Assembly (NCBI RefSeq): GCF_018304945.1
Contig: NZ_JAGQEE010000009.1
Location: forward strand, 62,001-126,000
Reading direction: 5' to 3'
From: Collimonas humicola
Lineage (GTDB): Bacteria > Pseudomonadota > Gammaproteobacteria > Burkholderiales > Burkholderiaceae_D
DNA length: 64,000 nt
The notes beneath the pieces are model-generated. The model ran no database searches and was not told the origin of the DNA. It saw only the letters and a list, made by a program, of their open reading frames with translations. Below, in pieces: positions 12,616 to 52,627 of the stretch. The position numbers and the translations under genes are program-made. How positions within the stretch are numbered: position 1 is the stretch's first letter; every line of letters starts with the position of its first letter.

Positions 12616-13548
12616 TTACAAACGGTAACCAAATACCCGGTGGAACTGCTCATCGATTTCTGCACGGCTGGGCGCATGGTTTTGCGGTCCCTGATGGGCA
12701 ATCTTAATGCTGCCCAACAAGCTCGACAGGCGGCCGGTAGTGGCCCAGTCCATGCCGTTGCTGAGACCGTACAGCATGCCGGCGCGGAAGGCGTCGCCGC
12801 AGCCGGTCGGATCCAGGATCCGTTCAGCCTGGACGCAAGGGATGTCGATCTTTTTACCGTCGGTATAGATCTCGGCCCCGAGTTCGCCGCGCGTGACGAC
12901 CAGCGCTGAAACGCGCTCGGCGATTTGCGCCAGCGTCAGGCCAGTGCGCGCAGCCAGCATCTCCGCTTCATAGTCATTCATCGCGATATAGGTGGCGAGT
13001 TCGATGAAATGCTTCAGCTCGTCGCCGTTGAACATCGGCATGCCCTGGCCCGGATCGAAGATCAGCGGAATGCCTTGCGCCACGCAGTCTTCCGAGTGCT
13101 GCAGCATACCGTCGCGGCCGTCCGGAGCGACGATCGCCAGCTTCACCGGACCCGCGTCAGCCACTTTGTTTTCGTGCGAATAGGTCATCGCGCCAGGGTG
13201 GAAGGCGTTGATCTGGTTGTTGTCGGCGTCGGTCGTGATGAAGCATTGCGCGGTGTAGATCGATTCGATGGTGCGTATCGATTTACGTGTAATGCCTTGC
13301 CGATCCAGCCGCTGCAGATAGTCGCCGCCATCGTGGCCGATGGTCGCCATGATTTGCGGCGAGCCGCCCAGCAGCTTGAGGTTATAGGCGATATTGCCGG
13401 CGCAGCCGCCGTATTCGCGGCGCATGGTCGGCACCAGGAAGGAGACGCTGATTTTGTGCAGCTGGTCTGCCAGCAGCGCATCCGAGAATTTTCCCGGATA
13501 TTGCATGATGACGTCGAAAGCCAATGAACCGCAGATGAGAGAGGTCAT
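12616..13548 (-). CDS. PfkB-family sugar/nucleoside kinase, adenosine-kinase-like
   Basis: The 310-residue protein starts at ATG 13548 (MTSLICGSLAFDVIMQYPGK). It shows both PfkB signatures: the N-terminal GGCAGNIAYNLKLLGG and the C-terminal DPTGCGDAFRAGMLYGL with the catalytic Asp. The overall sequence is nearest to adenosine- or ribokinase-like members. The substrate is uncertain because the lid residues are not diagnostic. It follows the zinc-ribbon gene by 45 bases and may be the last gene of the accB-accC-prmA transcript. Confidence 0.85.
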   Translation of the reverse strand: MTSLICGSLAFDVIMQYPGKFSDALLADQLHKISVSFLVPTMRREYGGCAGNIAYNLKLLGGSPQIMATIGHDGGDYLQRLDRQGITRKSIRTIESIYTAQCFITTDADNNQINAFHPGAMTYSHENKVADAGPVKLAIVAPDGRDGMLQHSEDCVAQGIPLIFDPGQGMPMFNGDELKHFIELATYIAMNDYEAEMLAARTGLTLAQIAERVSALVVTRGELGAEIYTDGKKIDIPCVQAERILDPTGCGDAFRAGMLYGLSNGMDWATTGRLSSLLGSIKIAHQGPQNHAPSRAEIDEQFHRVFGYRL

Positions 13549-49233: not shown

Positions 49234-51213
49234 ATGATTTTTATCACTGGAGGAGCCGGCTTTATCGGTTCCAATTTCGTACTGGACTGGCTGGCGCAGA
49301 ATGACGAGCCAGTGATCAATTTCGATAAGCTGACTTACGCTGGAAATATCAATAATCTGGTGAGTTTGCGTCAGGATCCGCGCCATATCTTTGTACAAGG
49401 AGATATTGGCGATACGGCTCAGGTGGCTGCTTTGCTAGCCAAGCATAAGCCGCGCGCAATTGTGCATTTTGCGGCGGAAAGCCACGTTGATCGCTCCATC
49501 CATGGACCAGCCGCTTTTGTGGAGACTAATGTCAACGGCACCTTCGGCTTGCTTGAAGCAACGCGCGCATACTGGGGGGCTCTGCCGGAAGCTGAGAAAG
49601 CAGCCTTTCGTTTTCTGCACGTTTCAACCGACGAAGTGTACGGCACCCTGGGTCCGGATGATGCGCCGTTTACCGAAACGACTCAGTACGCGCCTAATAG
49701 CCCTTATTCTGCATCGAAGGCTGCATCGGATCATCTGGTCCGCTCCTATCATCATACTTACGGCCTGCCTACGCTGACCACCAATTGTTCCAACAATTAC
49801 GGCTCCTACCATTTTCCCGAAAAGCTGATTCCTTTGATCATCACCAATGCGCGCGCCGGCAAAGCACTACCTATTTATGGCGATGGACAACAGGTGCGCG
49901 ACTGGCTCTACGTGAGCGATCATTGCGCGGCGATTCGCCGGGTGCTGGAGGCCGGCAAGCCGGGCGAGGTATATAACGTTGGCGGCTGGAATGAGAAGGC
50001 CAATCTGGAAGTGGTGCACACCTTGTGCGACATCCTGGACCAGTTGGACCCCAAGCCGGCTGGCAGTTATCGTGACCAGATAACTTATGTTACCGATCGT
50101 CCTGGCCATGACCGGCGTTACGCCATCGATGCGCGAAAGATTGAACGCGAACTTGGCTGGAAGCCGCTCGAAACCTTCGATACGGGCATTCGCAAGACGG
50201 TCCGGTGGTATCTGGACAATCAGGAGTGGGTCAAAAATGTCCAGTCTGGCGATTATCTGAAGTGGGTTGAGCAAAATTACGAGCAGCGCCAGAGTTCGGT
50301 AGGGGGGTGTCCAATGAACGAGCCGATTTCGCAAAGCCGTAAAGGAATTATTCTCGCTGGCGGTTCCGGCACACGTCTGTATCCAGTGACGATGGCGGTC
50401 TCCAAACAGCTGCTGCCAGTGTATGACAAGCCGATGATCTACTATCCGCTGACTACGCTGATGCTGGCAGGGATACGCGAGATTCTGATCATTTCGACGC
50501 CGCAGGACACGCCGCGTTTCAAAGAGTTGCTGGGCGACGGACGGCAATGGGGAATCGAACTCAGCTATGCTGTGCAGCCGACGCCGGATGGTTTGGCACA
50601 GGCGTTCATTATCGGCCGTGAATTCGTCGGCGACTCGCCATCCGCCTTAATTTTGGGCGACAACATTTATTATGGCCACGATTTCGAGAGTCAGTTGCGT
50701 GCAGCATCTGCACGCACTGAGGGCTCTACAGTCTTTGCCTACCATGTTCATGATCCGGAACGCTATGGCGTGGTTGAGTTTGACGATCAGCGGCGCGCGG
50801 TGAGCATCGAAGAAAAGCCTGCCCAGCCTAAATCTCACTACGCGGTTACCGGACTCTATTTCTACGACAACGAAGTGTGCGATATCGCTGCCGGCATCAA
50901 GCCATCGCCGCGCGGCGAGCTTGAGATTACCGATGTCAATCGCGTCTACCTCGAGCAACATCGTCTGAACGTCGAGTTGATGGGGCGAGGCATGGCTTGG
51001 CTGGATACTGGTACGCATGAATCGTTACTGGAAGCGGGGCAATTTATTGCCACTATTGAAAATCGTCAAGGCCTGAAAATAGCCTGTCCGGAAGAGATTG
51101 CCTATCGCAAGGGATACATCGATGCTGAGAAACTAGAGCAATTGGCACAGCCGTTAAAGAAAAACGGATATGGCCAATATCTGCTGGGCTTATTAAAAGA
51201 CAAGGTGTTTTAA
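49234..51213 (+). CDS. rmlBA: Fused dTDP-glucose 4,6-dehydratase (RmlB) and glucose-1-phosphate thymidylyltransferase (RmlA)
   Basis: Residues 1 to about 352 are Rml[28 protein letters not shown] and the [15 protein letters not shown] catalytic Tyr/Lys. The end [17 protein letters not shown] is normal for RmlB. Residues 361-659 are a complete RmlA ([47 protein letters not shown]). The junction reads SSVGGCPM across a six-G run at 50302-50307. With five Gs, RmlB would end at a TGA overlapping the RmlA ATG (50314), and AGGGGGG is a good ribosome site. It may thus be a real fusion, a slippage site or a sequence error. Confidence 0.85.
50301..50316 (+). promoter_or_regulatory. G-run and internal ribosome site at the rmlB-rmlA junction
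   Basis: AGGGGGGTGTCCAATG combines a purine-rich ribosome-binding site with the ATG of the RmlA half. It could allow separate RmlA translation even in the fused frame. A one-base change in the G-run would restore the usual ATGA-type overlap. Confidence 0.6.
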
Positions 51214-51215
51214 AT

Positions 51216-51761
51216 ATGCAAGTACAAACCACAAATATTCCTGAAGTATTGATTTTTGAACCAAAGGTTTTTGGTGATGATCGCGGCTTCTTCTACGAAA
51301 GTTTCAATGAACGCGGTTTTAATGAATTAACCGGTCTCAGCGTTAATTTTGTTCAAGACAATCATTCCAAATCCGCCAAAAATGTCTTGCGCGGACTGCA
51401 TTACCAGATCCGTCAGCCGCAAGGCAAGCTGGTGCGCGTCGTCGCCGGCGAGGTATTTGACGTTGCGGTTGATGTGCGTAAGAGTTCACCCACTTTCGGG
51501 CATTGGGTCGGCGTGACGTTATCGGCGGAAAACAAGCGCCAGTTATGGATTCCTGAAGGATTTGCACATGGTTTCGTGGTCACCAGCGAATCGGCTGAGT
51601 TCCTGTACAAGACTACGGACTACTGGGCGCCTGAATTCGAACGCAGCATTTTATGGAACGATCCTGCCATTGGCATTGACTGGCCGATTCAGGGAGCGCC
51701 GTTGTTATCAGGCAAGGACCAGATCGGGAAATTACTGGCTGACGCAGAGGTTTTTGCATGA
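51216..51761 (+). CDS. rmlC: dTDP-4-dehydrorhamnose 3,5-epimerase
   Basis: RmlC epimerises the keto sugar from RmlB. The 181 residues show EPKVFGDDRGFFYESFNERG, VLRGLHYQ with catalytic His62, the cupin core VRVVAGEVFDVAVDVRKSSP and GFAHGFVVTSE. It follows rmlBA by two bases and overlaps rmlD by four, so the four rhamnose activities form one operon. Confidence 0.96.
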   Translation: MQVQTTNIPEVLIFEPKVFGDDRGFFYESFNERGFNELTGLSVNFVQDNHSKSAKNVLRGLHYQIRQPQGKLVRVVAGEVFDVAVDVRKSSPTFGHWVGVTLSAENKRQLWIPEGFAHGFVVTSESAEFLYKTTDYWAPEFERSILWNDPAIGIDWPIQGAPLLSGKDQIGKLLADAEVFA

Positions 51762-52627
51762 AAATTCTCGTCACAGGTAAAACCGGCCAAGTCGGCTATG
51801 AGTTAGAGCGCAGCTTGCAAGGCCTTGGTGAGATCATCTCTCTTGATCGCAATCAGATGGATTTATCGGATTTGACCCAGGTCCGGGACGTCATTCGTGA
51901 GATCAAGCCAAATCTGATCGTCAATCCGGCCGCCTATACGGCGGTGGACAAAGCCGAGACGGAATCCGAGCTAGCCATGCGCGTCAATGGCGAGGCGCCT
52001 GGAGTCATGGCGGAAGAGGCCCGCAAGCTGGGCGCAGCGATAATCCATTACTCTACGGACTATGTATTCGATGGCAGCAAGACGAGTCCATATACAGAAA
52101 ATGATCCCACCTGTCCGATCAACGTGTACGGACGCAGCAAGCTGGCCGGAGAACAGGCAATTCAGGCTGCAGGCATTCCACATTTGATTTTGAGGACCAG
52201 CTGGGTCTACGGCGCACGGGGGAAAAATTTTCTGCTGACGGTGCTACGGCTAGCCCAAGACCGCAGCGAGTTGCGCATCGTTGGCGACCAGCACGGGGCG
52301 CCAACCTGGTGCCGGACAATTGCAGACACAACTGCGCATATAGTGGCTCAGGCATCGAGTGCCCAGGATTCACATGTCTGGTGGCAGGAGAAGAGCGGTT
52401 TGTATCATCTGACCGCACAAGGCCAGACCACTTGGGCGGGATTCACGGAAGCGATACTGGCAAACGCTGTTATCTCTAAAAAGCCCATCGTAACTGCTAT
52501 TACTACGCAGGAATATCCGTTGCCGGCAAAGCGCCCAAGCTATTCAGTTATCTCGTGCGAGAAATTAATCGCAACTTTCTGCGAATTGCCAACTTGGGAA
52601 AATTCTTTACGATTATGTCAATCTTGA
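51758..52627 (+). CDS. rmlD: dTDP-4-dehydrorhamnose reductase
   Basis: RmlD reduces the keto group with NAD(P)H to give dTDP-L-rhamnose. The 289 residues start MKILVTGKTGQVGYELERSL, an NADP-binding Gly motif. They have VNPAAYTAVDKAE, HYSTDYVFDG and the catalytic YGRSKLAGEQ, with LRTSWVYG. The start overlaps rmlC. It is the last gene of the G+C-typical rml block; base composition falls after its stop. Confidence 0.95.
   Translation: MKILVTGKTGQVGYELERSLQGLGEIISLDRNQMDLSDLTQVRDVIREIKPNLIVNPAAYTAVDKAETESELAMRVNGEAPGVMAEEARKLGAAIIHYSTDYVFDGSKTSPYTENDPTCPINVYGRSKLAGEQAIQAAGIPHLILRTSWVYGARGKNFLLTVLRLAQDRSELRIVGDQHGAPTWCRTIADTTAHIVAQASSAQDSHVWWQEKSGLYHLTAQGQTTWAGFTEAILANAVISKKPIVTAITTQEYPLPAKRPSYSVISCEKLIATFCELPTWENSLRLCQS

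Follow-up and report, generated by a model that had tools for sequence, protein, structure and literature searches.

A 659-codon frame spans rmlB and rmlA

The window analyzed here, by which we mean the whole stretch of 64,000 nucleotides of Collimonas humicola DNA, contains on its forward strand rmlB and rmlA in a single open reading frame, which runs from 49234 to 51213 through 659 codons free of stops before it ends at a TAA. An earlier note, made from the sequence alone, had drawn attention to this frame, to the GGGGGG at its junction and to the ATG of RmlA within it, and all three were confirmed. The features referred to below are the following (positions are those of the window).

49234 to 51213, forward strand: fused rmlB-rmlA open reading frame, 659 codons plus TAA.
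49234 to 50313, forward strand: rmlB part, dTDP-glucose 4,6-dehydratase, 360 codons ahead of the RmlA ATG (TIGR01181; PDB 1g1a_A).
50301 to 50307, forward strand: AGGGGGG, probable ribosome-binding site of rmlA, a role suggested by GGAGG-like purine stretches in congeners.
50302 to 50307, forward strand: six-G run, with an extra column occupied by the window alone in an alignment with 14 relatives.
50314 to 51213, forward strand: rmlA part, glucose-1-phosphate thymidylyltransferase, with its own ATG, 299 codons plus TAA (TIGR01207; PDB 5ids_A).
50315 to 50317, forward strand: +1-frame TGA that shares bases with the RmlA ATG; its counterpart in the closest relative, G006, terminates rmlB.
51216 to 51761, forward strand: rmlC, the next gene of the operon.
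51758 to 52627, forward strand: rmlD, overlapping rmlC by 4 bases.

The names of rmlC and rmlD follow the earlier note and our reading of the translations. The two genes share the 4 bases 51758 to 51761, as that note had stated when it likened their overlap to the one that rmlB and rmlA would form with one G fewer.

Both enzyme halves are complete. The RmlB half passes the NCBIfam model TIGR01181 with 498.8 bits (cut-off 365.1; profile positions 2 to 321 of 321), and the RmlA half passes TIGR01207 with 523.9 bits (cut-off 360.65; positions 1 to 285 of 286). The solved structures of RmlB (PDB chain 1g1a_A) and RmlA (PDB chain 5ids_A) match residues 2 to 353 and 368 to 659 of the fusion, respectively, thus leaving approximately 14 residues as a linker. 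The calculated mass of the fused product is 73.7 kDa. A division at the methionine of RmlA, which is encoded by the ATG at 50314 and is residue 361 of the fused frame, gives calculated masses of 40.3 kDa for the part before it and 33.4 kDa from this residue onwards. No second good copy of rmlB or rmlA was found in the genome, in which the next matches are weak (E values of 3.7e-17 or worse).

The letters of the junction are GTA GGG GGG TGT CCA ATG A. Removal of a single G would close the rmlB frame with GTC CAA TGA, and this stop would overlap the ATG of RmlA by 4 bases. A translationally coupled pair has the stop of the upstream gene lying over the start of the downstream gene; in the window, the TGA at this position sits in the +1 frame and does not end rmlB. 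Counted on both strands of the window, GGGGGG occurs four times, as opposed to 27.7 times expected from dinucleotide shuffles. Runs of this kind are thus scarcer than chance, and the six-G run is in itself unremarkable. A second GGGGGG on the same strand is located within the body of rmlB (49574 to 49579), where it is read in frame.

rmlB and rmlA are separate genes in other Collimonas genomes

Among 14 congeners, 12 have a readable junction; G001, with weak matches only, and G004, in which the contig ends within rmlB, were left out. rmlB and rmlA are separate in all 12. The earlier note had recommended a comparison of this junction among related genomes and had regarded a normal two-gene arrangement in all close relatives as speaking against its reading of the fusion, and this arrangement is the one found. 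In the closest relative, G006, the RmlB protein of which is 96% identical, the junction is A-GGGGG-C-GTC-CAA-TGA, with five Gs and a TGA that overlaps the RmlA ATG by 4 nt (ATGA). Given that the junction of G006 is the same with five Gs, the window carries one extra base. The one-G arithmetic of the earlier note was therefore correct, with G006 exhibiting exactly the predicted five-G, two-gene form, and its description of a short overlap as the usual operon style agrees with the ATGA of this relative. An alignment of 15 junctions, in which the row of G007 covers only the rmlB tail and that of Glaciimonas immobilis is a few bases too long, has an extra column that is occupied by the window alone. 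For G007, separate readings outside the alignment place rmlB and rmlA in separate genes. It is the fused frame, absent from every relative examined, that is the noteworthy feature of this locus, and not the G run as such.

The longest G run at the junction is five in two of the 12 readable congeners (G006 and G013) and three or fewer in the other ten, and six Gs are present in none. In G013, five Gs in the rmlB tail are followed by AGG, directly ahead of a GGAGG-like site (GGGGGAGG). At the position homologous to the G run of the window, the 11 congeners other than G006 have GGAGG (seven genomes) or GGAGA or GAGAGG (four genomes). Based on these GGAGG-like stretches, the G run of the window occupies the place of the rmlA ribosome site, which bears out the proposal of the earlier note that AGGGGGG resembles such a site. 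The stretch consists of Gs throughout only in the window and in G006, which suggests that the homopolymer may have arisen through replacement of an A by a G within a Shine-Dalgarno sequence.

The fusion is unique among the genomes sampled

We searched 392 genomes of the family and 398 genomes of the phylum, each set being an even sample of a larger group with a single genome for every species; both sets include the genome of the window, and they are partly shared with each other. The query was the whole fused protein, for which a fusion is expected to be ranked at the top, whereas a protein with RmlA first would not appear as one row. In the family set, six rows among the matches listed contained both halves, and only one of them, the window's own, was free of stops; the other five were rejected as fusions given that each has at least one internal stop codon. 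Among the matches listed for the phylum set, there was no stop-free fusion besides that of the window. The 15 other phylum rows with both halves, one of which begins only at residue 143, contain at least one stop each and were rejected likewise.

In addition, 123 loci were fetched, comprising 88 distinct pairs of adjacent and separate genes, 7 exact duplicates of these, 24 loci with intervening genes, 3 without one of the halves, and a single fused locus, which is the window's own. In none of these 88 adjacent pairs does a G run between the enzyme cores reach six; four of the pairs have a run of five. The fusion is thus not kept in more than one species: it is present in the genome of the window alone among the family and phylum genomes (in the matches listed) and the 123 loci. 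It is unique in this sample and would most simply be derived. Open frames of about 960 to 1030 amino acids in several genomes had suggested triple fusions of RmlB, RmlD and RmlA, but all seven that were fetched (L150 to L156) proved to be separate frames. A literature search covering titles and the openings of abstracts found no earlier RmlB-RmlA fusion, which is no proof of absence in print.

The earlier note interpreted the run as a one-base switch with coexisting forms, that is, as a phase-variable or slippage-prone tract which would mix fused and separate RmlB. Homopolymers can slip. A single G decides the frame, start and stop signals are present for both forms, and the congener G013 also has a five-G run followed by AGG in its rmlB tail. 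However, the tract is just six bases long, and the body of rmlB contains another one of this length. A phase-variable tract would be expected to be conserved in relatives and kept at the same place, whereas the tract of G006 at this place counts five Gs, and neither the 12 readable congeners nor the 88 pairs include a junction with six. According to the accessible text of the GeneTack survey (PMC3711429), at least five related genes in a cluster are needed for phase variation to be called. With six Gs in none of these other junctions, the proposed switch is unsupported, and we consider it very unlikely.

RmlA and RmlB catalyze successive steps, RmlA acting first, and the earlier note also put forward that their fusion could channel substrate. 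A bifunctional RmlB-RmlA enzyme selected for the channeling of dTDP-glucose would be in keeping with the succession of the two steps and with the completeness of both halves. Fusions of enzymes for later steps of rhamnose biosynthesis are known: RmlC/D of Prymnesium parvum as well as plant RHM and NRS/ER are described as fused and biochemically tested enzymes in the accessible part of PMC6556577. The protein encoded in the window resembles these in uniting neighboring pathway steps on a single polypeptide. By contrast, the fusions described there are spread over lineages and concern other steps, and RmlB-RmlA is known from the sequence of one genome. The protein also has the two enzymes in the reverse order, given that RmlA precedes RmlB in the pathway yet follows it in the polypeptide. 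As there is no other stop-free fusion in the 392 family genomes and 398 phylum genomes (among the matches listed) or in the 123 loci, a selected bifunctional enzyme is unsupported and appears highly improbable. Most likely, the fused frame reflects a recent single-base change or a slip in the assembly, and not a novel conserved enzyme or a switch.

A real insertion is favored over a sequencing error

The earlier note rightly raised the possibility that the sixth G is an error of sequencing or assembly, in which case the overlapping genes of the strain would be an ordinary pair with five Gs at their junction. In agreement with an error, all aligned relatives have a shorter junction, the change lies within a homopolymer of six bases, and the fusion occurs in only one of the assemblies searched (among the matches listed). 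The GeneTack survey (PMC3711429), in the text accessible to us, regards a frame change found only once as probably due to an indel mutation or a sequencing error; for one class of such singletons, it expects errors and not genuine indels. The junction of the window is similar to such singletons as a lone frame change between neighbors that lies outside a conserved cluster, but it differs from them in that two complete genes are joined and none is broken (PMC3711429).

For comparison with G006, about 280 kb of aligned DNA were available, 136 kb on the contig of the window and 143 kb on another contig. In a frame test, 209 genes of G006 (108 + 101; 221.6 kb) were read in the genome of the window. 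No out-of-frame base was present in 181 of these (93 + 88). Another 19 (11 + 8) have out-of-frame bases in their first fifth only, and these are taken as starts called too early. The remaining nine (4 + 5) have between 1 and 24 out-of-frame bases in later parts of the gene and include rmlB, with 9 such bases at its end. In several of the nine, these bases lie right at the 3' end, and the junction accordingly resembles the normal variation of a tail under little constraint. Since the count of out-of-frame bases beyond the first fifth is at most 24 in every one of the 209 genes, gene bodies in the genome of the window show no errors of the homopolymer type, which argues against an assembly generally prone to them and weighs against an error at the junction. 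In the reverse test, 103 + 104 genes of the window's genome were read in G006, of which 92 + 89 have no out-of-frame bases, 4 + 8 have them in the first fifth only, and 7 + 7 have them elsewhere. These last 14 cases are the fused frame, two genes of the window's genome with longer shifts (314 and 194 bases, both in the first third), which may reflect starts called too early, and 11 with 1 to 30 bases each.

G/C runs of at least six bases with both flanks aligned are spaced equally in 22 cases and differently in seven, the junction included (runs were counted from either genome, so that a pair may count twice). The equal spacing of the 22 stands against an error, and the further one-base differences in run length from G006 are in its favor. 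At four of the seven differing runs, including the junction, the genome of the window is longer by one base. One of these is a run of six Gs at a site with an open reading frame of 133 codons in G006 that the window's genome lacks. At another, the run of six Gs belongs to G006, and the window's genome has its additional base next to this run. On contig C11 near 812,885 (L165, at about base 12885), the spacing of a C6 run exceeds that of G006 by one base; the surrounding stretch is gappy and has no clear coding pattern. No broken gene was seen at the three other runs with an additional base, the C6 site being ambiguous in its gappy surroundings.

Across the fused frame, differences from G006 number 29, 12 and 205 at codon positions 1, 2 and 3, respectively, as under purifying selection; with most of them in third positions, there is no sign of decay. 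Overall, the clean result of the frame test favors a real and recent insertion over an error. We regard a single error at this one place as the less likely, though still plausible, alternative.

Gene overlap facilitates fusion by a single base

In the 88 distinct adjacent pairs of related genomes, the junction is of the ATGA type in 35, TAATG or TGATG in 22, GTGA or TTGA in 4, and of other kinds in 27. Stop and start thus overlap as ATGA, TAATG or TGATG in 57 of 88 pairs. In 55 pairs, adding one base to the rmlB tail would suffice to fuse the two genes, indicating that the frame geometry makes fusions of this kind easy. The RmlB tail past the aligned core comprises between 5 and 27 residues across these pairs, and given this variable length its sequence seems to be little constrained. 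Same-strand neighbors most often overlap by 4 nt or 1 nt, all other distances being far less common, and translational coupling depends on these overlaps, according to the accessible text of PMC10666635. The rmlB/rmlA pairs of relatives correspond to such operon neighbors. In the window, unlike in the overlaps described there (PMC10666635), the TGA is out of the rmlB frame, and the overlap has turned into a read-through fusion.

We propose that a recent, real insertion of one G probably joined an ordinary overlapping gene pair in the strain represented by this one assembly, as judged from the sequence comparisons above. The ancestor would have had two overlapping genes, with the rmlB stop TGA contained in the ATGA at the start of rmlA, and these were probably translationally coupled. 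The gain of a base in a G run is a common kind of replication slip. In both the window and G006 the ribosome-site stretch of rmlA is a G run, in which one G would have been gained in the genome of the window. Because rmlA was one frame off rmlB, an extra base brings rmlA into frame, and rmlB reads through. Ribosomes moving past RmlB would then continue into RmlA and may produce a functional RmlB-RmlA protein of 74 kDa, its halves connected by some 14 linker residues. The ATG of rmlA and the G-rich stretch ahead of it are retained, so that some free RmlA (about 33 kDa) is likely still to be made from this internal start. Free RmlB, on the other hand, would arise only if slippage at the run shifted reading into register with the TGA at 50315 to 50317. 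Given that the RmlB tail is variable in relatives, a selective purpose is unnecessary for the proposed insertion to have occurred. It is improbable, in our judgment, that the 74-kDa RmlB-RmlA protein and free RmlA are really made together and that this architecture is maintained by an altered use of dTDP-glucose.

Were the sixth G an error after all, the locus would illustrate that, at overlaps of 4 nt and 1 nt, a one-base slip can yield a false fusion instead of a broken gene, and a false fusion of this type may escape quality control aimed at disrupted genes. If the insertion is real, as we favor, the locus would provide a clean snapshot of the birth of an enzyme fusion, brought about by one base at an overlapping operon junction, in which neither gene is damaged and a near relative still has the shorter form.
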